Below the pieces are notes generated by a model. The model was not told where the DNA came from, made no database searches, and worked only from the letters and a program-made list of their open reading frames with translations. A stretch of 64,000 nucleotides of DNA from the NCBI GenBank assembly GCA_000632805.1, contig CP007444.1, positions 2,170,001 to 2,234,000 of the forward strand, read 5' to 3'. The stretch's first letter is position 1. Each line of letters opens with the position of its first letter. Below, piece by piece: positions 8,865-64,000 of this stretch. The position numbers were made by a program, and so were the translations under genes. Source of the DNA: Dyella jiangningensis (GTDB lineage Bacteria; Pseudomonadota; Gammaproteobacteria; Xanthomonadales; Rhodanobacteraceae).

Positions 8865-10346
8865 TCATCGGGCCGTGGAAGCCTGCGGGGCCTTGGCCGC
8901 GTCGATATCGGCGACCTCCGCCGTACTGTCGAACCCGCCACCCAGCGCTTCGATCAGGCGGACGGAAATGTCGATCTGCTCACTCTCCAGCGCAGCGAGT
9001 CGCTGTTGCGCCGTCAACAACTGCTGGCGGCTCGTGAGCGGCGTGAGCGGACCCTTCAGGCCGCCCTTGTAGGCCTTCATGGCGTCATCCCAGCTTTTTT
9101 GCGCGTCATCCACCGCGCGCTTTTCCAGCGTGATCTGCTGGCGCACGGACGCGAGCGCGGAAACCTGGTCGGAGACATCGTTCAAGGCGCTGACGACCAG
9201 GCCGTTGTAGCGCGCCACCATCGCGTCATATGCGGCATCCGCCCCAGCGAGACGAGCGCGACGATGGCCGCCATCGAAGATCGGCAAGCTCAGCGCCGGG
9301 CCAAATGCATACTGGCGTGCAGGCAGCTGAAGCACGTTGGTACTGCCGCCGACGGCGATAACGCCCGCCATGGCGCTGAGGCTGATGTTCGGCAGGAAGT
9401 CGGCCTTTGCCGCCTTGATGTCCTTGCTCGCCGCTTCGATTTCCCAGCGCGCCGCCACCAGGTCGGCGCGACGGCCGATCAGATCCACCGGCAGCTTGTC
9501 GGGCAGGACCGCAGGACCGCGATCCAGCATGTGCGGGCGGCCGATGGCGAGACCGCGATCCGGCCCCTGCCCCAGCAAGACCGATAGGCTGCTGCGCGCG
9601 GCATCGATGGCGCGATCAGCCGCCACCTTCTGCTGTTCGGCGCTGGCCAGCTGCGAATCGGCCAGATGTTCCTGCTGCGGCGTTTCCAGCCCGCCGGCAA
9701 CGAGCTTGCGCGTGACGTCGAGCGACTGGCTCGCGCGCTGCAGCTCGGCTTCGGCCACGTCCTGTTGGGCAAACGCATAACCCAGGTGCACATAGGCGCG
9801 CGCCACGTTCACGGACAGTTCGATGCGCGCGGCATAGGCATCGATCTGCGCGGCGCGGCTATGACCCAGCGCGCCTTCCCATTGCGCACGCTTGCCGCCC
9901 CACAGGTCGAGGTCCCAGGAGAACTCGCCCATGATGGACTTGCTCCAGGCGAAGGTGCCCAGCACATACGGCGGATAGATCGGGTTCTTCTTGGACAGGT
10001 AGGCACCGGTGATCGATGCATCGAGCTTGGCCTGCGGCATGCGCCCCGCATTGACGCTGTCGGCCACCGCTTGTGCCTGCCGCGCACGCGCCTGCGCCTG
10101 CTCTAGGCTGGGGTTGGTCTTGAGCGCTTCCTCGATGAGCGAGGAGAGCTGTGGATCGCCATACGCCACCCACCAGTCCTGCGATGGCCATGCCGTGGGG
10201 CTCAGCTGCACGTCGGCCAGGCTGCGCTCGGAAGCGAGCGCGCCGGAGTCGGTCATGGTGCCCGTGGTGTGCAGGCCGCGACTGGTGGCGCAACCGGTCA
10301 TGACCAGGCAGAGCGCAACGGCGGCAGGGAGTGCGAAAGAACGCAT
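8865..10346 (-). CDS. Efflux outer-membrane factor, NodT-type lipoprotein
   Basis: The 493-residue protein is a TolC-like outer-membrane channel of RND pumps. The first 18 residues are a lipoprotein signal with lipobox 'VMTGC', giving an acylated Cys18. Two OEP repeats follow, with long periodic Ala/Gln-rich helices and the typical 'LVAGGLETPQQ' and 'AYKGGLKGPLTPL' turns. The inner-membrane pump and adaptor are not adjacent, so it must partner with components encoded elsewhere. ATG 10346 gives a proper signal peptide; longer starts do not. It is divergent from the OsmC-like gene. Confidence 0.9.
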   Translation of the reverse strand: MRSFALPAAVALCLVMTGCATSRGLHTTGTMTDSGALASERSLADVQLSPTAWPSQDWWVAYGDPQLSSLIEEALKTNPSLEQAQARARQAQAVADSVNAGRMPQAKLDASITGAYLSKKNPIYPPYVLGTFAWSKSIMGEFSWDLDLWGGKRAQWEGALGHSRAAQIDAYAARIELSVNVARAYVHLGYAFAQQDVAEAELQRASQSLDVTRKLVAGGLETPQQEHLADSQLASAEQQKVAADRAIDAARSSLSVLLGQGPDRGLAIGRPHMLDRGPAVLPDKLPVDLIGRRADLVAARWEIEAASKDIKAAKADFLPNISLSAMAGVIAVGGSTNVLQLPARQYAFGPALSLPIFDGGHRRARLAGADAAYDAMVARYNGLVVSALNDVSDQVSALASVRQQITLEKRAVDDAQKSWDDAMKAYKGGLKGPLTPLTSRQQLLTAQQRLAALESEQIDISVRLIEALGGGFDSTAEVADIDAAKAPQASTAR

Positions 10347-25295: not shown

Positions 25296-25652
25296 TCAAG
25301 CGGAGCGCAGATGCTCGGTGGCATGCGGTCCTCTCTCCAATCGGCGGGCCGAACCGCGCGTCAGGCGCTTTATGACACCCTTCGCCTGGGACTCATCCTC
25401 CCAGACGGTGAAACTCATCCCTTGCTCGATCATCGGCAACGCTACGTCGGCCAGAAGCAACCAGATCTCGACCTCGAAATGTTCGCCCTGCAGATGCTCG
25501 CCATCGAAATGCAACGTCGCCGACCAGAACTCGTTGTTGATTTCCACCACCGTCCGCCATTCCTTGCCCGAAAGATGGCTATGGCCACCCGATGCCCCAA
25601 CCGGCAACAGGTGGATCTCCGCGACGAAATCGGGCAAGGCGCTCGTACTCAT
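25296..25652 (-). CDS. Beta-rich hypothetical protein, module copy 1 (paralogue of 57788-58207)
   Basis: The 118-residue protein aligns along its whole length without gaps over the first 100 residues with the protein at 57788-58207. Shared motifs are 'LPD', 'GEW/KEW', 'WSA', 'GEHF', 'VWLL/IWLL' and 'FTVWE'. The '...SFTVWE...G.VKRLT' end resembles the last strands of EF-Tu-type beta barrels, but this is only a pattern impression. ATG 25652 is chosen because it aligns exactly with the paralogue start. It lies 115 bases downstream of the response regulator on the same strand. Confidence 0.72.
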   Translation of the reverse strand: MSTSALPDFVAEIHLLPVGASGGHSHLSGKEWRTVVEINNEFWSATLHFDGEHLQGEHFEVEIWLLLADVALPMIEQGMSFTVWEDESQAKGVIKRLTRGSARRLERGPHATEHLRSA

Positions 25653-25767
25653 ACCGGTGGCCTGACTACAGCAAACACGTCGTTGCACGAACGATCCAAC
25701 CGTGCCGAGCGAGCCTCGACGGCAAAGTGTTCCGCCCTCTTTCGTGGCATGGCCGCGCGCATAGCCA

Positions 25768-26445
25768 TCAACTCACCGACGACGCACGTCGCCGCACGGG
25801 GTCCAGCAAGCCAAGTCGCCTCGCTTCGGAGAGAAGCTCAATGAGCGAGTGCGTATGCGTCGCGCGCTGAAGCCTGATCTTGTGGCTCTCGACCGTTCTT
25901 CGCGACAGGCACAGCCGGTCGGCAATCTGCTGGGCAGTCATGCCCTGGTCCAGCAACTGCAGTACCACGCGCTGTCTCGTGGACAGGTGCACTTCCGGGC
26001 GCTTGTCTCCCATGAGCACCGGCATGAAGGCACCCGACAGATACGCCTTGCCCTTCAATGCCAGGTCAATGGCCGATTGCAACGCGTCCACGCCTTCCAG
26101 TTTCGCAACGACGCCGCGGGCGCCCGCATAGAACGCGCGCTGCAATGCCGCCGGATCCGACTGGGAGGTGAAGAAGACGAAGGGAACCTTGCTTTGCGTC
26201 GCCCGCGTGTTTTCGAGTGTTTCCAGGCCGCTCTGGTCGAGCAGGTTGAACTCGGTGATGATGGCGTCCGGCGGGTCCGTGAGAACGAGCTTTTCCAGCT
26301 CTCGTCCGCTCCTCAGCACGGCCTTGATTTCGTACGCGCGACTGAGCGCACGGGCAAGACCCTGCGCGACCAGCAGATGCACATCGGAAATCGCGATCGA
26401 TGGCCTGCGGGGTTCATCGTCGACTGGCGTCATATGCGCGCTCAT
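25768..26445 (-). CDS. LuxR/NarL-type response regulator with Glu at the phosphoacceptor site, module copy 1
   Basis: The 225-residue protein has a receiver domain (about 15-135) and a C-terminal LuxR HTH ('TAQQIADRLCLSRRTVESHK', about 172-191). Aligned with NarL, the phosphoacceptor Asp is Glu65 ('IITEFNLL') and the second acidic-pocket residue is Val; the switch Thr and the Lys of 'VVAKLEG' remain. A Glu may mimic constant phosphorylation, so control could be by abundance or by a partner. GGAGAG ribosome-binding site supports the start at 26445. The upstream gene at 26473-26727 ends 27 bases away and is co-transcribed. Paralogue at 56456-57145 is about half identical by eye. Confidence 0.87.
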   Translation of the reverse strand: MSAHMTPVDDEPRRPSIAISDVHLLVAQGLARALSRAYEIKAVLRSGRELEKLVLTDPPDAIITEFNLLDQSGLETLENTRATQSKVPFVFFTSQSDPAALQRAFYAGARGVVAKLEGVDALQSAIDLALKGKAYLSGAFMPVLMGDKRPEVHLSTRQRVVLQLLDQGMTAQQIADRLCLSRRTVESHKIRLQRATHTHSLIELLSEARRLGLLDPVRRRASSVS

Positions 26446-26472
26446 CGCCACTCTCCATCGCCTGCAGATCAC

Positions 26473-26727
26473 CTATGAGACCGCGCCAAGTGGATCTGTT
26501 CCGTGGCGCGATATGCCTCGAACTGCGCCGGCCCATTGCAGCGCCCGGCCAACCGATCGAGCGATGTCGGCCTGCACACAATCCGAATGCAGGGCAGTGA
26601 CGCCGTCCATGCTCAATACCTTGTCACCCATGACAAAATGGACAATCCAGGTCGCGTCGTGGCCATGTCCGCATTCGTACCAGACGCACACGCAGGATCC
26701 GTCAATGTCGTAGGTGAAATAGTCCAT
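26473..26727 (-). CDS. Small hypothetical protein, module copy 1
   Basis: The 84-residue protein shares 'MD.FT.D..GS.V.VWY.C' and 'S.DGV..L.S.C' with the protein at 57195-57428. Each lies just upstream of a Glu-type response regulator. Several Cys and His residues are present ('ECGHGHDATW'), so metal or redox binding is possible. Start 26727 aligns with the paralogue and has a GGGGGAGG ribosome-binding site. I know no family for it. A partner or sensor for the regulator is the natural guess. Confidence 0.7.
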   Translation of the reverse strand: MDYFTYDIDGSCVCVWYECGHGHDATWIVHFVMGDKVLSMDGVTALHSDCVQADIARSVGRALQWAGAVRGISRHGTDPLGAVS

Positions 26728-27125
26728 GCCTCCCCCGAGCATGACGACATCTTTCGCAACATCACCTCTATCTCACAAGTCAGCCAAATGGCCGAGCGGT
26801 CGCGTTCGTTGGCGCGTTGCAAACCGTAGTGCGCAACGCGTCCAGGCTGTCGCGAACCTTGTTGGATCGAGCCAAAAAGCGCTTGCTCGCCACGCCGACA
26901 TGGCGCTTTCCACCATGCGTAGTGGCGCGAGAAGCATGCTCGCACTGAGGACTACGCAGCGACTGCAAATCTACCGGCCACATCCTGCGTAAATCTACGT
27001 AGCCGCCGCGACCTTGATGTATGTCTTCGCGCCTTCACCCCGCGCTATCGGTTTGCTTCGCGGCCCTGGCGAACAATAGTCGCTTGGCGATCAACGCCAG
27101 CACACGCGGTCGAGGAGGAGCAGCG
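26728..27125. other. 398-base divergent regulatory region of module copy 1
   Basis: No credible gene is seen. Two copies of AAATCTAC lie at 26967-26974 and 26991-26998, in direct orientation 24 bases apart. The region must hold promoters for the module on the left and for the small plus-strand gene on the right. Confidence 0.4.
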
Positions 27126-29047: not shown

Positions 29048-29374
29048 CTATTTGTTCTTATGGCTCTGCTCGCCGGCCTTGACGTGCTGCTCGTGGCTGC
29101 CGCCACGCGAGCCCTGATTACCCGACGATGCGTTGGATGAGCCACCGCGGCTCTCGCCGCCCTTCGCGCCAATCTCGGCCATGTGCTCACGATCCTCACT
29201 CACCGCCTCGCCGCCCTTGCGTCCGGCTTCGCGCGCTTCCTGAGAGTTGAATTCGTGTGCATTGCCCGACTCGTGAGCAGCCCTGCCGCCCTTCGATGCA
29301 ATTTCGCGCTGCTTGTCATCGTCCATCGATGCGAAGCCACGATTCGATCCACCTTGGTTTTGGTTGTTTGCCAT
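29048..29374 (-). CDS. KGG-repeat general stress protein (YciG/Con-10 type)
   Basis: The 108-residue hydrophilic protein has several copies of the short KGG-type repeat, such as 'FASMDDDKQREIASKGGRAA', 'EAGRKGGEA' and 'AEIGAKGGESRGG'. The C-terminus is Ser/Gly/His-rich. Homologues accumulate in stationary phase or desiccation and are thought to act as disordered stress protectants. The start has a TTGGAGAA ribosome-binding site. It is convergent with the pseudouridine synthase gene. Confidence 0.9.
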   Translation of the reverse strand: MANNQNQGGSNRGFASMDDDKQREIASKGGRAAHESGNAHEFNSQEAREAGRKGGEAVSEDREHMAEIGAKGGESRGGSSNASSGNQGSRGGSHEQHVKAGEQSHKNK

Positions 29375-55833: not shown

Positions 55834-56223
55834 TCAAACCCGGTTTTTTCCACCCACCGCCTGCCCAGGCGAAGACTGAAGGCTCAGCGCAACTTCGATG
55901 CGGCGCGCGAATTCATGCTCGGCGATCACGGCGGCGGCCTGGGCCTCGAACCGCTCGGCCATGCTGCGCGGCACCGTGAGTCGCACTTCGCGCCATTCGA
56001 TCGGCGCGTCGAGTCTTGCGAGATGGGTTTCGTAAATTCGGCGTACGTTGCGATCGATGGCGCCGCGGGTCAAATGCGCCTGCGCGGCCAATATCGAGGT
56101 TGAAACCCCATCGACCAGGGCGGCGCGGGAGAGCTCCAGATGGCGGGGCGATATGCGCAGCCCGCGCACGGCAACGGCGAATTGCGCCGCGCTGAGGCGG
56201 CGCCCACTGAAACGCTGTTTCAT
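55834..56223 (-). CDS. KorA/TrfB-family DNA-binding regulator
   Basis: The 129-residue protein resembles TrfB/KorA repressors of IncP plasmids: 'RRLSAAQFAVAVRGLRIS' at the N-terminus and an HTH with 'ALVDGVSTSILAAQAHLTRGA', seen as 'GVSTSILAAQAHLTRGAI'. KorA binds palindromic operators and controls replication and partition genes. The C-terminal part (about 85-129) differs from KorA. It may be a chromosomal remnant of a plasmid or phage. ATG 56223 is chosen because the codon before is GTG. No KorA operator (GTTTAGCTAAAC) is seen close by. Confidence 0.75.
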   Translation of the reverse strand: MKQRFSGRRLSAAQFAVAVRGLRISPRHLELSRAALVDGVSTSILAAQAHLTRGAIDRNVRRIYETHLARLDAPIEWREVRLTVPRSMAERFEAQAAAVIAEHEFARRIEVALSLQSSPGQAVGGKNRV

Positions 56224-56455
56224 CACCTTGGTACTCCCTGGGCGGTGTGATGAGTTGCGCTTGCCCCATCCAGATCAGGGCGACGGCCCACGCTGGGCCC
56301 AACCGTCAGCCTGCCGTAACACTCGTGGAGGCCGTGTGTAATCCGGCAGCCACCCGCACGCGACCGACCCGCAGCCCGTGATGGGCGCGGTCTTGTTCAG
56401 CCGAAAGGGTGGGTCGGGCGGCCATCGCAGGGCCACCCGTGAAACGAAAACACCC

Positions 56456-57145
56456 TTACCGGGACGTTTTCGCCGGCTGAAGTGCCCGATCCTGTCTCGT
56501 CAGGAGACCCAGTCGGTCCGCTCGCACCAGAAGCTCCCGCGGCGAATGGGTATCGGTGACGCGAAACAGCCGGGCCTTGTGAGACTCCACGGTCCGGCGC
56601 GACAGGCCCAGCTGATCGGCGATCTGCTGCGCGCTCAGCCCGCCATCCAGAAGCTCCAGCACCCTCTTCTGGCGCGTCGTCAGGCGGATCTCGGGCATCT
56701 GCTGCTCGGTAGCCAGCAACTGCATGAAAGCGTTCGACAAGTACACCTTGTTCTCGGTGGCAAGATCGATGGCCGTCTTCAGTGCATCGACGCTCTCCGA
56801 CTTCGCAATGACGCCAAGTGCGCCGGAGTAGAACGCATCGCGCAACGTGCCCGGGTTGGTCTGCGCCGTGCAGATCACGAAGGGAACGTTGTGGCCCATG
56901 GCCCGCAGACGCTTCAACGTATCGATGGCGCTCTGGTCGAGCAGGTTGATCTCGGTAACCACGGCGTCCGGCGCACAGTCCAGAACAGCCTGCTCCAGTT
57001 CGCGCCCGCTGGCGAAAACGCCCTTGATCTCATGGCTTCCGCTCAGCGCTTTCGCCAGCCCTTGCGCCACGAGCAGATGCCGATCCGAAATCAGTATGCC
57101 TGGCTTCGGGAAAATGCTTTTCGATTCGTCGATACAGGCTGACAT
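56456..57145 (-). CDS. LuxR/NarL-type response regulator with Glu at the phosphoacceptor site, module copy 2
   Basis: The 229-residue protein matches the regulator at 25768-26445 throughout: receiver (about 15-135) with Glu65 in 'VVTEINLL' instead of Asp, Arg at the second acidic-pocket site, Thr and the Lys of 'GVIAKSES' kept; then a LuxR HTH ('SAQQIADQLGLSRRTVESHK', about 172-191). Both copies having the same change suggests a functional, phosphorylation-independent receiver. GGTGGAGGGGTC precedes ATG 57145. The small partner gene lies 49 bases upstream on the same strand. Confidence 0.87.
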   Translation of the reverse strand: MSACIDESKSIFPKPGILISDRHLLVAQGLAKALSGSHEIKGVFASGRELEQAVLDCAPDAVVTEINLLDQSAIDTLKRLRAMGHNVPFVICTAQTNPGTLRDAFYSGALGVIAKSESVDALKTAIDLATENKVYLSNAFMQLLATEQQMPEIRLTTRQKRVLELLDGGLSAQQIADQLGLSRRTVESHKARLFRVTDTHSPRELLVRADRLGLLTRQDRALQPAKTSR

Positions 57146-57194
57146 GACCCCTCCACCCGATGCCCTCGATGCACGCATGCACCGGCCGAACTGA

Positions 57195-57428
57195 TCAAAC
57201 CTTGCAGGAGCTGCGCTCATCGTCATGGCAAGCCAACTGCAGCCCGCGAATCACCGACGCCTTGACGTCGGATGGCGCACACCCCGAATCAAGAAAAGCG
57301 ACCCCGTCGATGCTCTGCACGTAATCGTCAACGATACGGTTGGCGATCCAGACCACCTCGCCTTCGCAGCTGCACTGGTACCAGACGCTGACCGGCGAGC
57401 CGCGAAAATCGCACGTAAAGTGATCCAT
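57195..57428 (-). CDS. Small hypothetical protein, module copy 2
   Basis: The 77-residue protein is the paralogue of 26473-26727. It shares the opening 'MDHFTCDFRGS', then 'VSVWYQC' and 'IDGVAFLDSGC'. Cys residues at four to six positions suggest metal binding or redox sensing. ATG 57428 aligns with the other copy and is preceded by GGGAGG. It lies just upstream of the Glu-type regulator, as in copy 1. No known family. Confidence 0.7.
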   Translation of the reverse strand: MDHFTCDFRGSPVSVWYQCSCEGEVVWIANRIVDDYVQSIDGVAFLDSGCAPSDVKASVIRGLQLACHDDERSSCKV

Positions 57429-57787
57429 GCCTGGCAAGCCCTCCCGAGCATGAACATGCTTGGCCATGATTGGCGCAGTCAGTCCCTACCTGTTTCAACG
57501 TCGATACACCTGCTCGACAGACGCACTCATTACGATCAAGGCTGGCATAACGACGAAGCGGGCCATCCTTGCGACCTCAATCAGATTGAAGCCGCAGCAA
57601 AGCCGGGCGTTGATCCCCGTCAATAATTCTTGCGCCGGCTATTCGATCATCGCTTTCGACCCATGTCGGCCCCACGTTGATGGGGCCCGAACTCCCAAGG
57701 CTGGAGATGTGGCGAGCCTTGGATGGCTACCCGGCTTTCAGACGATGGCCTCTCTTTGCCCCACCCAGCTTGCTGCAGGTGATCACC
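57429..57787. other. 359-base divergent region of module copy 2
   Basis: This region separates the divergent small-protein gene and beta-rich gene. No gene or long palindrome was seen. Gene order here differs from copy 1, where all three genes share a strand, so both promoters of copy 2 must lie here. Confidence 0.4.
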
Positions 57788-58207
57788 ATGATTCCGCGCG
57801 AACTGCCCGACCTTATTGCGGACCTATGCTTGCTTTCGAATCCGTCGATGGGCTCTCCAGCGGAACTTTCCAAAGGCGAATGGCAAACCGTCCTGGAAGT
57901 GGATGGCGAATACTGGTCGGCCATGCTCAATTTCGAAGGCCGGCATATTTCAGGCGAGCACTTCGACGCCGAAGTGTGGCTGCTCTACTTGAACACGGCA
58001 CTTCCCAGTTTCGAAGAAGGCGTGAGCTTTACGGTCTGGGAAGGCGAAACGAGGGCCGTAGGCACGGTCAAACGCATCACCCGACACCAGGACACTGCTG
58101 CTGATGACACGGAAGCAGACGTTGCAGGCGCCATGTCTCCCGCGAACAGCTTGTCATCGACCTTCGGGCCTGCCACGTATATCGAGCTTCGGCGGCATCA
58201 GGCTTGA
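57788..58207 (+). CDS. Beta-rich hypothetical protein, module copy 2
   Basis: The 139-residue protein is the paralogue of 25296-25652, with common 'LPD', 'GEWQTVLEVDGEYWSA', 'SGEHFDAEVWLL' and 'GVSFTVWEGET'. It has an extra C-terminal tail of about 30 residues ('MSPANSLSSTFGPATYIEL'). The pattern resembles small EF-Tu-like beta barrels, but I cannot assign a function. ATG 57788 aligns with the other copy. It is transcribed away from the regulator gene, unlike copy 1. Confidence 0.7.
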   Translation: MIPRELPDLIADLCLLSNPSMGSPAELSKGEWQTVLEVDGEYWSAMLNFEGRHISGEHFDAEVWLLYLNTALPSFEEGVSFTVWEGETRAVGTVKRITRHQDTAADDTEADVAGAMSPANSLSSTFGPATYIELRRHQA

Positions 58208-58256
58208 TGGTGCCGGAGGCAACACGGATGCCATCGACCTCTTCAACAGTTCGTTT

Positions 58257-58289
58257 GAACGACGGGCCTTGCTGAAAGGCCCGTCGTTC
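58257..58289 (+). terminator. Strong stem-loop terminator
   Basis: A perfect 14-bp stem GAACGACGGGCCTT / AAGGCCCGTCGTTC with a 5-base loop lies 50 bases after the beta-rich gene stop and before the convergent HigA-like gene. It can serve both. Confidence 0.75.
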
Positions 58290-58340
58290 ATCTGCGCTCG
58301 GAAAGAGAGACGAATGCTCGCAACGAGCAAGTGCGCATAA

Positions 58341-58643
58341 CTACGTCGAGTGCCGTCGCGCCACGTTCAACATCGCCAGGTCGTAACGCGCCTGTAGCAC
58401 CAGCCAATACGTCGGTGTGGGATCAGTCACGAGTGACAAGCGCAGTGCGTACTCGGCATTGATGCGTCGACGGCCCAACGTGATCTGCCGCAGCGTAGTC
58501 AGCGAGATGCCGGTGCGGCGCGCGAAGCGTGCCAGCGGTATCGAATAGGGCTGGAGGTAATCGGTCAGCAGAACTTCGCCGGGGCTGCGCAGCAATTCCG
58601 ACGAATCAAAGTCCATCAGCGGATCGATCTTGATCAGGCACAT
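58341..58643 (-). CDS. higA: HigA-like antitoxin (orphan)
   Basis: The 100-residue protein matches the HigA/VapI XRE-type antitoxins: 'SPGEVLLTDYLQPYSIPLARFA' (seen in part as 'PGEVLLTDYLQPYSIP'), HTH 'ISLTTLRQITLGRRRINAEY', and the end 'PTYWLVLQARYDLAMLN'. ATG 58643 has an AGGAAG ribosome-binding site. HigA proteins neutralise HigB RNases encoded upstream in the same operon. No HigB-like frame is found upstream here, so it is an orphan or has lost the toxin. It may repress other promoters. The terminator at 58257-58289 lies downstream. Confidence 0.85.
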   Translation of the reverse strand: MCLIKIDPLMDFDSSELLRSPGEVLLTDYLQPYSIPLARFARRTGISLTTLRQITLGRRRINAEYALRLSLVTDPTPTYWLVLQARYDLAMLNVARRHST

Positions 58644-59743
58644 AAGGCTTCCTTTCCTGTCAGGCACGGCTCAACGACGGATCAAGCCCTACAGGCTTCC
58701 GTGTCGGCATATGCCGGGGACGATGTAAGTGATCGCTGAGATGCGGCGCAGCGGCAAGCAGGCCGATGCGTCGCGAAAACGATCACTGGGCGCGGGAAAT
58801 GCTCACTTCGGGCTTGGTATCAAGCCTTGCAGCGGGGAGCGCGGGAATTATCCATCGCCTATAGCCGTTGTCGGCGAAAGCTGACACGCGCAGCTGTGAG
58901 CTGCCCTGGACTTGGCACGCTGGATGCCGGAACAGGAAGTGAGGTGCCATCGAGGGGAATGGACGGGCGAATGTGTCCCGTATGATCGTGGATAGCCATA
59001 TCAACTCTTGTGTAGTTGGTGATGGTCAGCGGGTCGTATGAGTTGCCGCTCATGCGGCCCGCGCTTCTCGACGTGGTGTCGAGGCCACTGGCGGTGCATT
59101 GTTATCGACGTCGAAGTGGCTTGTTGAAAGTAGCAAACAGCATTCGCCGAGCCTGTCGGCGATTACTACGCGACAACCGTGTTAAGTACCGATACACATG
59201 TCGGAACTTCATGATTCCGCGAGCCATGAATCGCTCTCGCAACGTTTGCCATGAATTGCAACTTCCGAAGATCGATGCAACACATGGCAGGCATGGCTCG
59301 CCCCACTGTATGGATAGGCCAGCGGTAGCGCTCTTGAAGACGCTAAATGTGAAGAAAGCAATTTGGGACTGAAATGCATGTGACAACACCCCTCAGTGAG
59401 GCCGTGAGCGTGTGTTGCAGCGATTCAAGAAACTGCCAATCAGTTTGATGAGCCGAAGACCTCCGCCCAGCAGCAGGATGAAGGTAGGCGACCGCACCTC
59501 CAACCAACAGAACCGACGACCTCATCGAACCCCGCTTTCGGTCGTACGTCCTTTACCGCGTCCCCACCAGTCGTTCGGTGGATGCCAATTCGGTCTACCG
59601 AGGGCGCTAGGCAGACCGGTCTCTAAAAGCAGGGCTGTGAATACACAGTATCGGACACGTCGCGACCCCGCAAAATCGACGCGGAGTGGCATCCCGCTTA
59701 TTCGACGAAGGATATCGACTCTGACCGCAGTTTTTACAAGAAC
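58644..59743. other. 1.1-kb low-GC region without a recognisable gene
   Basis: Base composition drops visibly here compared with the left part of the window. Several overlapping frames (for example 59016-59372 plus and 59102-59389 minus) show no family character. No HigB toxin, integrase, transposase or tRNA was found. It may hold decayed mobile-element DNA at the left border of an island. Confidence 0.45.
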
Positions 59744-61495
59744 TTAAGCAGCAGCCGGCTTTTCAGTTCCGAGCGCAAGGGCTCTCAGGAATAGACTGCG
59801 AAGCTCGTCGAGCCTGTCTTTAGCAATGCAACCCGCCTCAATGGCTTTCAGGGTATGAATCGGTTTCTGGTCATCCCGAGCAGGCAATTTCAGACCGAGG
59901 AATTTCTCGATGCACTCATTGACGAAACAAGCCTCGGCGAGGCGACTTGGGCCTGCCTTGTTCCTCAGCATCTCGTTCACGACTTTGTGGTGATCTTTGC
60001 CCTGGTCATCATCCAGCATGAGGCCATATGGAATCCCAAAGCCCTCAAGCAACGCGATGTAGCGATGTAAGTTAAATTTGCCCATCGCATCGACAACCGC
60101 AACGCGGTGCCGACTCAAGTCGTGCCAATCCCGTGCTAGAAGCCAAGCAAACAAGGCTTTCTCAGTTGCTCCCTCGACCAGGAGTACGCGGTCAGCGAAA
60201 AACATCGAAGCCCGCTCTGAATCCAACCAGAGCTGATAGCGGAATCGTTCTTCCTGCTCGGCAATGACGACATCTTCGGTCGCCCCCTGCAACATCTTCC
60301 TAGCGTAGCCCTTCGTGCTATCCGACACAGCCGGATCGTTAACGTAAGTCTCAAGCCAAGTCTTGAACTGATATCCCTGCCCAAGCACACCGCTGAGCTC
60401 ATCCTTTCTGATCTGCCCTGCACTGGTAACACCATCGCTACGTCGAACACGAACGATCTGACAGAGGTCGTCAGCCACCTTTCCGACAAAAATTGGGGAG
60501 TGACTGGTGACTATGACCTGTTGCGCCGCGCCCGCGCCCAACCTGCGCAAGTGGTAGGCCATGTTTTCTTGTTGTGATGGATGCAGGAACGCCTCAGGCT
60601 CTTCGAACAGGATGAGTGTGAAGTCCGGGTCAAATTCCTTCTTCGCCACCACCTTTCCATCAGCAAAGCTAGGTGCCAGCTTGATAAGTTCGTACAAAAA
60701 TGATCGCTGAAACCCGTGTCCATAGCGATCAAGAGCAAACGACGTCTCTCCTAGCATCGCATCCACAAATCCATGCCGGATGAGATTCTTGGTGATGTCG
60801 TCTGGTGCAATGGGATTGACGCCCATATCGAAGCGAACCCCCCATTGATCAATAGCGAGATTGATGGGTTTGGAAATTTTCGACAGGAACCCCTCTTCTG
60901 CCCGGGCCTCTTCATTCAACCTTGCAAATGCGCCCTCCATCTCCTTATAAGCAGGACTTTCCGCAACCACGCGCTTCAGCATTAGGTTGAGCATGTCCCG
61001 CAAAGGTGACGGGCCACTGGTTTTCATCTGCTCGGCAGCCGTGGTGAGCGCCGGGATGTAGATGATGCTGCCGACCTTCGCCGTTCCGACGTTCTTCGCG
61101 CCATAAAACAGGTCCTTCTCCAGCTCACCATTAATAACGGCGTAGATGTTGCTCTGGCTCGACTTAAACCTGTCCTTGTCCTTGGATGCGAAATAGCGAC
61201 GAACGACAAGGATCCGATTCGCCACCCCTTCCTTGTATTTGTCCGCAAGTCCTTCCCACTCAGCCTCGGTCAGATCAAAGGTCAGCTCAACCCACGACTC
61301 ATCAATCTGGCCACCCTTCATCTTCGGGATATCGTCGCCAGAGTGCTTGAAGTCCTCATAGAACGCCCGTAGCGCGGAAATGATGTTGCTCTTTCCAGCA
61401 TTGTTAGCACCCACGATCATCGTGTAGTCGTGAACCTCGATGTCGGCGTCAACGATGGAGCGAAAATTGTGAATTCGCAGGCCACGAAGCTTCAT
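59744..61495 (-). CDS. OLD-family ATP-dependent nuclease (ABC-type ATPase plus TOPRIM)
   Basis: The 583-residue protein has an SMC/RecF-like ATPase with Walker A 'GANNAGKSN' (about 29-37), Q-like 'GHGFQRSFL' (259-267), Walker B 'LILFEEPEAFLHP' (294-306) and switch 'TSHSP' (330-334). A C-terminal TOPRIM domain follows with Glu441 ('LLVEGATEKALF') and Asp pairs ('VVDAMGKFN', 'LMLDDDQGK'). OLD nucleases act in phage exclusion (P2 Old) and Gabija. No UvrD-type partner (GajB) is adjacent, so it looks like a stand-alone class 1 OLD. AGGGGGAC precedes ATG 61495. Its base composition is lower in GC than the core genes. Confidence 0.9.
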   Translation of the reverse strand: MKLRGLRIHNFRSIVDADIEVHDYTMIVGANNAGKSNIISALRAFYEDFKHSGDDIPKMKGGQIDESWVELTFDLTEAEWEGLADKYKEGVANRILVVRRYFASKDKDRFKSSQSNIYAVINGELEKDLFYGAKNVGTAKVGSIIYIPALTTAAEQMKTSGPSPLRDMLNLMLKRVVAESPAYKEMEGAFARLNEEARAEEGFLSKISKPINLAIDQWGVRFDMGVNPIAPDDITKNLIRHGFVDAMLGETSFALDRYGHGFQRSFLYELIKLAPSFADGKVVAKKEFDPDFTLILFEEPEAFLHPSQQENMAYHLRRLGAGAAQQVIVTSHSPIFVGKVADDLCQIVRVRRSDGVTSAGQIRKDELSGVLGQGYQFKTWLETYVNDPAVSDSTKGYARKMLQGATEDVVIAEQEERFRYQLWLDSERASMFFADRVLLVEGATEKALFAWLLARDWHDLSRHRVAVVDAMGKFNLHRYIALLEGFGIPYGLMLDDDQGKDHHKVVNEMLRNKAGPSRLAEACFVNECIEKFLGLKLPARDDQKPIHTLKAIEAGCIAKDRLDELRSLFLRALALGTEKPAAA

Positions 61496-61829
61496 AGTTG
61501 TCCCCCTTGTCATCCCATCCGATGGATACCCCGGCAGTATCGAGTGGCGGGCCACGCTTCGCTAGTCGGTCGCGCAACTTCGCCCCCTTTCTGCCAGCAT
61601 GGGCTGATGAAGGCGCCGCAAGAAGAGGTAGCCGCCGTTACCTATGAGTTGCGGTTTGCGGGAGGTGTCCGCTATAACGAACCCCGGCCGGCGACCCAGT
61701 TGCTGGCCGGGTAGCGTGGCCGACTTTGGCTCACACCCGATTGGCCTGACAGCCCGACTAGGGGCCAGGTACCCGAATTGCTTCCCTCATTGGGAGCACG
61801 GGAATACCCTGACCCTTAGTGGAGGCCTT
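61496..61829. other. Divergent region between the OLD and HNH nuclease genes
   Basis: The 334 bases hold the promoters of the two divergent nuclease genes. No further gene was seen. The HNH gene has a GGAGG ribosome-binding site at the right end. Confidence 0.4.
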
Positions 61830-62201
61830 ATGGCAATCCGCGCTCACCAGCGTTATCTCGCGTTTCAGCGACAGCACGGCCAGTGCGCTTATTGCGATGT
61901 GATCATGTGGTTGCGCAGTCCCTCGGAGCTTCCAGGCATCAGCACTCGGCGCGCCCGTCTGCTGCAAGCTACTGCTGAACACAAGCACGCCCGTTGCGAT
62001 GGCGGCAGCGATTCCAGTTCGAACATTGCCGCCGCGTGCTGGTATTGCAACATACATCGACATCGAGCTGGGAAGCCACGCTCGTTTGAAGACTTTCGAG
62101 GATTTGTACAGCGACGCATTAAGGCCGGAAGGTGGCATGGGATTCGGCCCCAAAGCGAAAAAATGGGCCCCAAGCCTTCCTTGAACGGAGTCAATGACTA
62201 G
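61830..62201 (+). CDS. HNH endonuclease-like protein
   Basis: The 123-residue protein has an HNH/zinc-finger fold. Cys19 and Cys22 ('QCAYCDV') and Cys70 and Cys73 ('AACWYCN') make the structural zinc site, and 'AEHKHARCDGGSDSSSN' gives the His51 and the Asn65 of the HNH motif. The ending 'HRHRAGK' is typical. It should cut DNA with a divalent metal. ATG 61830 is placed by GGAGG seven bases upstream. It is divergent from the OLD nuclease gene; a common defensive or mobile-element role is likely but not shown. Confidence 0.85.
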   Translation: MAIRAHQRYLAFQRQHGQCAYCDVIMWLRSPSELPGISTRRARLLQATAEHKHARCDGGSDSSSNIAAACWYCNIHRHRAGKPRSFEDFRGFVQRRIKAGRWHGIRPQSEKMGPKPSLNGVND

Positions 62202-62357
62202 AGCAGGCGAGCTTAGAGACTGCGCACGCGATGACCCTGGGATTGTTGGGCGCATCCGTGCACCCAACCCCTCCATGCTTCGCACCGTGGGGCGAGCCTG
62301 CGGCTGTCCAAGTTTGTTCCAGACAAATTCGTCGGCCCAATAGGTTCTCGTCCCCGC

Positions 62358-62415
62358 CTCTCCGCCAGAAATGAAAAGCGCCCCGAAAGGGGCGTCTTTC
62401 ATTTCTGGCGGAGAG
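62358..62415. repeat. 27-bp inverted repeat whose arms end like the tRNA-Ser 3' terminus
   Basis: Arms at 62358-62384 and 62389-62415 match at 25 of 27 positions around a GAAA loop. Each arm begins at its outer end with CTCTCCGCCA, the 3'-terminal sequence of many tRNA-Ser genes including CCA. The central CGCCCC-GAAA-GGGGCG followed by TCTTTC looks like an intrinsic terminator. No complete tRNA fits on either side. It could be a remnant attachment site of an island that used tRNA-Ser, or a terminator for the flanking genes. Confidence 0.6.
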
Positions 62416-62458
62416 GGTGTCCGTGCCCAAAGGTGCCCAGTGATGGTGGAGATTTTGA

Positions 62459-63565
62459 TTAGCCTTCTGGGTTAGGGGGCGCTCCAATGTCCCCATCTGG
62501 GAGTTTCAGTATTGGCTCACCGTTCTGGCTGACAAATTTCATGTTCTCAGATGCGGCGGCAATTTCGTTGAAACTGGTGAGATCGACGGCATGCTCGACT
62601 GGCTCACCAGCTTTTATGCTGGGAGCTGACATCCTGATGTCGATATTGAAGCCGCGATCGATACGCCCTGCGATTTTCTTTAGTGATTGTCTCAGTTCGA
62701 TGGATATTTCGTTAGCTCGACCCTGCTCCAATTGCGCGGAAAAACGCTCCTCCAACTCTTTGGCTAGTTCATCGATACCTGAATCCATCACTCCGTCTGC
62801 ATGGTTCTCCACTCCTTGAAGGACCTCTTGCTTTATGCCGACTGCCTTCAGGTCAGCCTTGATCTTTTTTATCTCTAAGAGTTTCTTATAGAGCTCAACA
62901 ATTCGCTCTAGAGCAACAGCGACGGCGGCACAAACGGGCGGAGCCGATTCCAGAAAGACAGAGAGATCGGAGGAGGAAATGGTGCGAATCTTGAAGCCAG
63001 GTCTATTGCCCGTTACGAGCTCGGAAAAGACGCCAAGAATTTTATTGAGCTCAGTGAGCTCTTTGCCAAAATTAGCAAGCTTGTTGTGAACGAAGCCTCG
63101 TGGAATCAGGACGCCGATTTCGCACTCACCGGGATCAAGTTCTTCGCTTCCGATATTGAGATGTTCAAAGGCTGAGGTGATCTTTTCAAGGGCTTCAATG
63201 AAAGCAGCCACGTCGTCGACCAGAGAGTTCAATTCCTTGGATGCAACCGCTGGGGTCATCTGATTTCTCGAGAATATCTCCTCAATTTGATAGTCAAGAT
63301 TTGAACCCGTCAGCCACTTGCCGCCAATCTCTTCTAGCACCTGCTGCCAAGTTGCGCTGAAGTGATCAATCTCAGAATGCTGGGTCAGGGCCTCAGTCAG
63401 TAGGTGCCTCACTTGACTGAGTTGCTCCTGGAATTGAGGGGATGCTGGCTGGCTGATCATATTTGCGAGGTCTGACTTTAGCCTGCGCAAATAGGCGCTA
63501 ATTTCATTCTTCGAAAAATCGTTGAGAATCGCTTGAGCAATGGCATTCAATCTTTCCGCGTTCAT
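62459..63565 (-). CDS. Helical hypothetical protein of the island
   Basis: The 368-residue protein is acidic and mainly alpha-helical, with coiled-coil-like parts ('QFQEQLSQVRHLLTEAL', 'LERIVELYKKLLEIKKIK', 'LAKELEERFSAQLEQ') and a shorter mixed part in the middle ('EIGVLIPRGFVHNKL'). The C-terminus is Gly/Pro-rich. No domain is recognised. AAAGGGACAGGG precedes ATG 63565. Codon use is AT-richer than the core, in line with recent acquisition. Its location beside nuclease genes suggests a defence or mobile-element cargo role only by association. Confidence 0.72.
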   Translation of the reverse strand: MNAERLNAIAQAILNDFSKNEISAYLRRLKSDLANMISQPASPQFQEQLSQVRHLLTEALTQHSEIDHFSATWQQVLEEIGGKWLTGSNLDYQIEEIFSRNQMTPAVASKELNSLVDDVAAFIEALEKITSAFEHLNIGSEELDPGECEIGVLIPRGFVHNKLANFGKELTELNKILGVFSELVTGNRPGFKIRTISSSDLSVFLESAPPVCAAVAVALERIVELYKKLLEIKKIKADLKAVGIKQEVLQGVENHADGVMDSGIDELAKELEERFSAQLEQGRANEISIELRQSLKKIAGRIDRGFNIDIRMSAPSIKAGEPVEHAVDLTSFNEIAAASENMKFVSQNGEPILKLPDGDIGAPPNPEG

Positions 63566-63671
63566 CCCTGTCCCTTTGTTTGGTGCGCCCACAATGAGGC
63601 GCAGTAGATTGCCTGACACACAGTAAAATAAAAGTGGTAACGGAGCAGGTGACTCCAAAGAAAAGCAAACT

Positions 63672-63717
63672 GGGGTCAGAGTGCACTTTCCTGATTACTC
63701 TCATGCAAAAAGTGCAC
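63672..63717. repeat. Short inverted repeat resembling RAYT-associated REP elements
   Basis: GGGGTCAGA is followed by GTGCACTTT (63681-63689) and, 19 bases on, AAAGTGCAC (63709-63717), giving perfect 9-bp arms. 'GGGGTCAGAGTGCAC' repeats are widespread near REP-associated tyrosine transposase genes in this order. No such transposase gene is in the window. One copy only is seen here. Confidence 0.45.
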
Positions 63718-63838
63718 ATTGATTCAGTTTTGGATAGCCCCCGCTCAACCGCTGAAAAGCCGCAGAGCCCCCTCGACTGCCTCATAGGCGAACCAGTACA
63801 TCGCAACTGGATAAATTACATATGCTGCGTTCCCGCGA

Positions 63839-64000
63839 TCAGTTCCTTACAGGCCAACCGTAGATCTGGCTCAACGCACCTATCGCCACCTCATCCATGA
63901 AGCGATCAGGCGTTCCCGACACGAATGTAAAACCCGTGGCCGTGCGTTTGTCTGTCGCCGCAGCAATTAGCTCGTGCGTGCTGACGTCATAGAGCTCCAC
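63839..64000 (-). CDS. C-terminal fragment of a hypothetical protein (runs off the right edge)
   Basis: Reading the minus strand from the right edge gives 53 uninterrupted codons to a TGA at 63839-63841. The segment opens 'VELYDVSTHELIAAATDKR' and ends 'ALSQIYGWPVRN'. The alternation suggests beta-strand then helix, as in the last part of some DUF-type lipoproteins, but no family can be assigned. Start and most of the protein are outside the window. Confidence 0.6.
   Translation of the reverse strand: MELYDVSTHELIAAATDKRTATGFTFVSGTPDRFMDEVAIGALSQIYGWPVRN

Follow-up and report, generated by a model that had tools for sequence, protein, structure and literature searches.

Pseudo-Receiver Regulators and NarL-Type Promoters

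The regulators considered in this article have their closest described relatives among the aspartate-less receiver (ALR), or pseudo-receiver, regulators of the NarL family, in which a receiver is combined with a GerE helix-turn-helix (HTH) domain. Glutamate is the commonest replacement at the place of the receiver aspartate, according to PMC4395418 and PMC12632262, and the latter names ligand binding among the control modes of pseudo-receiver domains and treats the manner of their switching as an open question. For NarL itself, PMC9314961 describes an arrangement of inverted heptamers with a 2-bp spacer and, for ogt1052, a NarL site located 32 bp before the -10 element.

The Dyella regulators described below share with this group the receiver and GerE HTH architecture, the exchange of Asp for Glu, and the retention of Thr and Lys. 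They differ from other ALR regulators in that the Dyella clade occurs in a two-gene unit together with an uncharacterised small protein. We propose, with a probability of roughly 0.5, that the unit constitutes a Dyella-specific operon which encodes a small effector and its own atypical pseudo-receiver regulator of the NarL family, and that the regulator would bind an inverted repeat and activate the promoter of the small gene.

Gene Content of the Two Loci

The window, by which we mean the whole stretch of 64,000 nucleotides that was analysed, corresponds to positions 2170001-2234000 of a single-contig genome of 5.40 Mb, which carries the code G000 among the 20 Dyella genomes compared. It contains two sets of three genes, denoted small, reg and beta, and the features relevant to them are as follows.

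26780..26795 (-): predicted 7-2-7 inverted-repeat operator upstream of small1, symmetrical at six of seven half-site positions
26773-26778 and 26749-26754 (-): weak -35 and weak -10, respectively, after the small1 operator (motif scan)
26473..26727 (-): small1, 84 aa, family without assigned function (BLASTP and genus-wide family search)
25768..26445 (-): reg1, 225 aa, regulator of the NarL/FixJ type in which a pseudo-receiver, with Glu in the phosphoacceptor position, is joined to a GerE HTH
25296..25652 (-): beta1, 118 aa, beta-rich, weak likeness to EF-Tu domain III
57195..57428 (-): small2, 77 aa, paralogous to small1; no operator found within 250 bp of upstream DNA
56456..57145 (-): reg2, 229 aa, paralogue of reg1
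57788..58207 (+): beta2, 139 aa, paralogous to beta1 and transcribed divergently from small2

Start codons were picked by alignment with relatives; the gene caller had missed small1 and placed the start of beta2 at 57770. In copy 1, all genes lie on one strand, with small1 followed after 27 bp by reg1 and, after a further 115 bp, by beta1. In copy 2, 49 bp separate small2 from reg2, and beta2 is located on the far side of small2 in divergent orientation. A preliminary description of this DNA had reported paralogy between 25296-26727 and 56456-58207, and this is real, with BLASTP identities of 45% over 66 aa for small1 and small2, 61% over 202 aa for reg1 and reg2, and 49% over 103 aa for beta1 and beta2. 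The gene order given there, with small upstream of the regulator in both copies and beta inverted in the second, is also correct. Two of its details require adjustment: the term Cys-rich suits small1 and small2 and not the family, which has no invariant Cys among 11 members, and the paralogues are not confined to these two places, as G000 carries further small genes at 963254 and 3939410 and a further beta gene at 1463509.

Distribution in Dyella and Its Order

When the 20 Dyella genomes were searched with each of the three families, 11 clear copies of small were found in five genomes (four in G000, two each in G004, G006 and G008, and one in G014). Regulators of the Glu type number five and occur in four genomes (two in G000 and one each in G006, G008 and G013); two other G013 regulators from the same search keep the Asp. 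Eight strong copies of beta are distributed over six genomes (three in G000 and one each in G002, G004, G006, G007 and G008), and there is, in addition, a divergent copy in G010 and a marginal copy in G011. A weak small relative is present in G000 at 1270155 (L080 1489-1716; E 9e-4) and is followed by a second small open reading frame.

Four of the five Glu-type regulators, in three genomes, are immediately preceded by a small gene in the same orientation, the intervals being 27, 49, 66 and 70 bp. No Glu-type regulator adjoins the remaining seven of the 11 small genes. A regulator of this type without any small gene occurs in G013, and the reverse combination, small without such a regulator, is found in G004 and G014. 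The preliminary description had taken the joint retention of three genes to suggest that they work as one system, and had named co-occurrence and gene order across genomes as the check and scattered homologues as the contrary outcome. The argument stands for small and the Glu-type regulator, allowing for the solo small genes and for the regulator of G013, and it is weak for beta, which lies beside the pair only in G000.

Among 398 sampled genomes of the order, six matched small at E <= 0.001, and the five credible ones are all Dyella; a match in G244, lying antisense within a gene read by eye as cobO, was dropped. Beta was matched in 16 genomes of the sample, belonging to nine of 98 genera; it is present in eight sampled non-Dyella genera that yield no credible small match.

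Neither small nor beta matched anything above the curated cut-off in Pfam or NCBIfam, or anything at all in PADLOC. The CARF, Csa3, CasR and MkoB models of PADLOC were matched by the regulators only in part, mostly over the HTH half, and among known phage-defence systems there was no PADLOC whole-protein match for small, beta or the regulators. Viral and plasmid searches gave no beta relatives. Among the titles listed, no description of the small/regulator unit was found in literature on Dyella with LuxR, response regulator or small protein, and none of this unit in literature on stand-alone EF-Tu domain III.

The Pseudo-Receiver

Both reg1 and reg2 match Response_reg and GerE of Pfam above cut-off, the receiver preceding the GerE HTH. 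In an ungapped comparison the canonical motif VVADINMP is replaced by IITEFNLL, VVTEINLL and similar sequences in the Glu-type regulators. Read from the alignment with canonical paralogues of the genus, the phosphoacceptor Asp has become Glu in all five, in line with the Glu-type assignment made in the preliminary description, and the following Pro is lost in all five. Of the two acidic residues near the N-terminus, the second is missing in four and kept in G008. Thr and Lys are kept in each of the five. No kinase was found among the genes called around either copy in the window, read by eye and in part by Pfam, and in G013 a PAS protein lies nearby. The best trees group reg1 with reg2 (60/75) and small1 with small2 (73/85), in neither case with strong support, and the long branches of the small tree call for caution.

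Regulator relatives at L058 and L069 in G013, two of them Asp-type, are located near PAS proteins and small helical-looking proteins, several of the latter in L069. The regulator family may thus pair with other small proteins.

The Predicted Operator

Upstream of ten of the 11 small genes there is a predicted operator, TCWGCCA-WW-NGGNYGA, an inverted repeat of the form 7-2-7, the exception being small2. It begins 68-80 bp ahead of the start codon, immediately before a weak -35, and the distance from the site centre to a weak -10 is 30-33 bp in a best-match scan. Half-site symmetry amounts to 4-7 of seven positions in the ten sites, against a background mean of 1.8. In its 7-bp inverted half-sites, its 2-bp spacer and a centre about 32 bp from the -10, the layout is like that of NarL-dependent ogt1052; it differs in having a half-site of its own, TCWGCCA, and in that the binder is a predicted one.

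The element was first noticed by eye when 250 bp of upstream DNA from each of the 11 small genes was inspected, and a 24-base seed was chosen afterwards; it did not stand out in a blind k-mer count (10-mers present in four of six regions: two observed against 0.4 in shuffles). The ten sites match the seed at 15-21 positions, the weakest being a G004 site with 15 of 24, and among shuffled upstream regions 19 of 300 reach at least 15 and two of 300 at least 16. When the matrix was built without one paralogue group, the excluded site ranked first to third among the 470 positions of its upstream region in ten of ten cases, with modest scores for small1 and G008, where 0.06% and 0.09%, respectively, of 754,174 positions score higher. 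Site conservation partly reflects shared ancestry within two sets of orthologues, with four and three members, and the -35 and -10 hexamers are weak when taken alone, as shuffles reach such matches in 19-228 of 500.

The 20 genomes were also scanned with TCNGCCAAANGGNCGACTTGC, the matches listed omitting part of G012 and the whole of G007. At one mismatch or fewer, all four matches listed are small promoters (G014, G006, G000 and G004), and at two mismatches one of the seven matches listed is a small promoter (G008). At three mismatches or fewer there are 162 matches against 250 for the reversed control; since TCNGCCAAANGGNCGACTTGC was derived from the sites themselves and passes over any that are one base shorter, the scan indicates specificity at high match only.

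From the two-gene unit and its decay traces, the receiver changes and the common upstream element, all of which can be read directly in the DNA, we infer a mechanism in which Glu would mimic or replace phosphorylation, such that the regulator would need no kinase and its activity would follow its own amount or a bound partner. The Glu-type regulator would bind the inverted repeat as a dimer and activate the small promoter, and consequently its own operon and the solo small genes would be activated as well, constituting a positive loop. The main output would be the small protein, with beta as an optional neighbour of the operon.

The strongest objections to this mechanism arise from small2 and from the genomes G004 and G014. 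The small2 operon has an intact reg2 and no operator, which counts against it, and G004 and G014 both carry the operator and lack a Glu-type regulator, so that either another factor must use the site there or it is only part of the promoter. Together these observations leave room for a canonical NarL paralogue as binder. A canonical, Asp-bearing paralogue would then read the operator and the Glu-type regulator would be a duplicate that competes for the site and tunes it. Canonical relatives are available for this role at E <= 1e-42 in 16 of the 20 Dyella genomes, including G004 and G014. However, 11 of these 16 genomes have no small gene and, among the matches listed, motifs with at most one mismatch occur only in genomes with small. 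It is the Glu-type regulator, and not the canonical one, that adjoins small. We consider a canonical binder unlikely.

The five Glu-type regulators and the predicted operator at ten small genes provide a small natural test set for pseudo-receiver switching. It also includes two genomes in which the operator occurs in the absence of a Glu-type regulator, and a single genome where such a regulator is present and small is not.

Decay of the Small/Regulator Pair

A locus with an AI-2E transporter gene exemplifies how the pair is apparently dissolved. Small and regulator are both intact there in G006, while in G000 and G004 an intact small gene is accompanied by regulator traces. The trace behind small in G000 matches L056 9704-10024, mainly the second half of the regulator, and that in G004 matches L056 9329-9440, extending into the first codons of the regulator. 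Their local alignment scores are 94 and 66, respectively, and none of 500 shuffles reaches either value (shuffle maxima 56 and 53). Extension by blastn at this locus did not cover the traces in G000 and reached only just into the gene in G004. A frameshift-tolerant scan gave a score of 56.5 behind small3, which was not used alone because the same scan produced a false regulator match of 53.2 inside ispH in G006 (L061). We read the traces as indicating that the regulator was lost at the AI-2E locus in G000 and G004.

Other small genes stand alone: the neighbours of small4, named by eye, are ispH and pilus-type genes in the case of G000 and G006, and pilus-type genes in that of G004 and G008. 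Among small orthologues, dN is 0.05-0.12 against a dS of 0.57-1.19 in six comparisons, with three comparisons of the small4 group left out where the G004 row was out of frame.

These results also bear on a different division of labour within the pair, whereby small would bind the pseudo-receiver and set its activity, the pair being a regulator with its anti- or co-regulator. The position of small as the first gene in all four two-gene units would suit such a partner, as would a pseudo-receiver that lacks a phosphorylatable Asp, given that ligand control is among the modes named in PMC12632262. Nevertheless, seven of the small genes lack an adjoining Glu-type regulator, and G004 and G014 have no Glu-type regulator at all. 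Moreover, the small genes of G000 and G004 at the AI-2E locus, where both genomes have the regulator reduced to traces, show a dN of 0.12 and a dS of 0.57. A role for small as a partner appears rather improbable, and we retain the reading in which it is the output.

Attachment and History of Beta

Beta adjoins the small/regulator pair at two loci, both in G000, and in G006 and G008 the pair and beta are located on different contigs. Holding beta1 and beta2 together in the tree costs 20 log units (p-AU 0.0008), and they are consequently not sisters. This argues against the block having arisen by simple duplication, and for beta a recent event of that kind, covering the whole block, was rejected. 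The preliminary description is right on the small/regulator pair and half right on beta. The nearest relative of beta1 is the G004 beta (support 89/90), which is found near the same DHFR-like gene as copy 1, in this case without the pair.

A further association was detected in G007, where an operator-like site (L067 10000-10015, minus strand) precedes a decayed small gene, the end of which is at 9743; beta comes next, from 9578. The decayed gene scored 36.8 in the frameshift-tolerant scan, compared with a mean of 18.1 and a maximum of 27.6 for 400 null windows, one null draw with the same score being taken as the same region and set aside from the maximum; the best other non-gene score over 3566 windows was 32.0. 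A single-frame HMM search for decayed genes near beta had found nothing, and the operator-like site emerged only in a wider scan. The divergent beta relative of G010 is separated by 4 bp from a double-GerE gene in front of it. Around the five remaining strong betas, nothing resembling small or the regulator exceeded background within 2 kb, and a single-frame profile search of the short loci around beta relatives in other genera was likewise negative for both.

Best element matches upstream of the eight strong betas are 12-14 of 24, which is chance level in all eight. Beta upstream regions share 9-mers in four of six (26 observed against 14.2 in shuffles) and no 10-mers at that level, and when the upstream regions of four small genes were combined with those of four beta genes, 9-mers were shared in six of eight (two against 0.2 in shuffles) and again no 10-mers at the corresponding level.

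An ancient module of small, regulator and beta, acting as one system and subject to frequent losses, would account for the adjacency in two copies whose betas are not sisters, for the decayed small gene and operator-like site upstream of beta in G007, and for the double-GerE gene in front of the G010 relative. It would have to accommodate five strong betas that lack any nearby trace of the pair above background, beta without small in eight other sampled genera, and the separate contigs of G006 and G008, and it seems to us quite improbable. The distribution is more consistent with a two-gene operon to which beta is an optional neighbour, one that would have joined or left the unit more than once and would not be an obligate part of it.

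Two genes recognised by eye as IS30-like transposases flank the third beta gene of G000 (L003 7226-10936).

Fold Leads for Beta and Small

A beta profile built from 15 relatives in nine genera yielded 23 distinct PDB matches at E <= 10, all to the C-terminal part of EF-Tu (best E 0.0032; two of the 23 are ancestral or consensus designs). Without the four most divergent rows, the remaining 11 rows gave a single match, to EF-Tu 301-388 at E 2.1, and a profile of the eight Dyella rows matched only kinases, at E 1.1 and up. The EF-Tu match rests on those four rows, and a barrel resembling EF-Tu domain III is consequently a lead for beta and not a result. The likeness to that domain is remote, and beta differs from it in standing alone, with about 100 aa. 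It has no Pfam match, and its structure model was poor (pLDDT 58.9, from two sequences) and led to nothing informative in a fold search.

As a separate observation, L117 735-1022, without a Pfam match and lying beside a beta relative of another genus, resembles EF-Tu domain II by eye.

For small2, an AlphaFold2 model from five sequences shows four strands and a long C-terminal helix (pLDDT 88.6). No PDB match to the model was found at E 0.001 or better, and among the best length-matched ones are Rv1738 and Rv2632c (Foldseek E 0.18-0.26, TM 0.42-0.48). Against a viral fold library nothing was found at E <= 0.001, the best match being an unnamed 97-aa protein at E 0.007. The two Mycobacterium proteins carry DUF1876 and resemble small in being small single-domain proteins, with a fold match that is not significant; small differs from them in the phylum of its hosts and in having no Pfam sequence match, its 11 members matching no Pfam family at E <= 10. 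DUF1876 is itself a Pfam family. Rv1738 is under the control of the NarL-family regulator DosR. Both Rv1738 and Rv2632c are placed among putative ribosome stabilisation factors in the review PMC12186496. The likeness of small to the two proteins is a lead only for the translation reading that follows.

That these leads combine into a stress-time translation module, in which a kinase-free NarL-type regulator would drive a ribosome- or RNA-directed small protein together with a stand-alone mimic of EF-Tu domain III, regulator and small working like DosR and Rv1738 without being members of those families and one operon thereby adjusting translation, is highly improbable, and slightly more so now that the EF-Tu likeness is seen to lean on divergent rows.

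Other Genes in the Window

Copy 2 is adjoined by a gene for a KORA-type (KorA/TrfB) repressor at 55834-56223 (-), with a Pfam E-value of 1e-10, a plasmid-type gene in a chromosomal setting. The G+C content drops from about 0.644 to 0.518 across 56000-64000 of the window, and this low-G+C part includes an HTH_3-like protein (58341-58643) and an OLD-like ATPase-TOPRIM gene (59744-61495). The stretch is perhaps the margin of an acquired island to which copy 2 belongs. Close to copy 1, a protein with a KGG stress motif is encoded at 29048-29374 (-), and CsbD-like and UspA-like genes, named by eye, also occur in the window.
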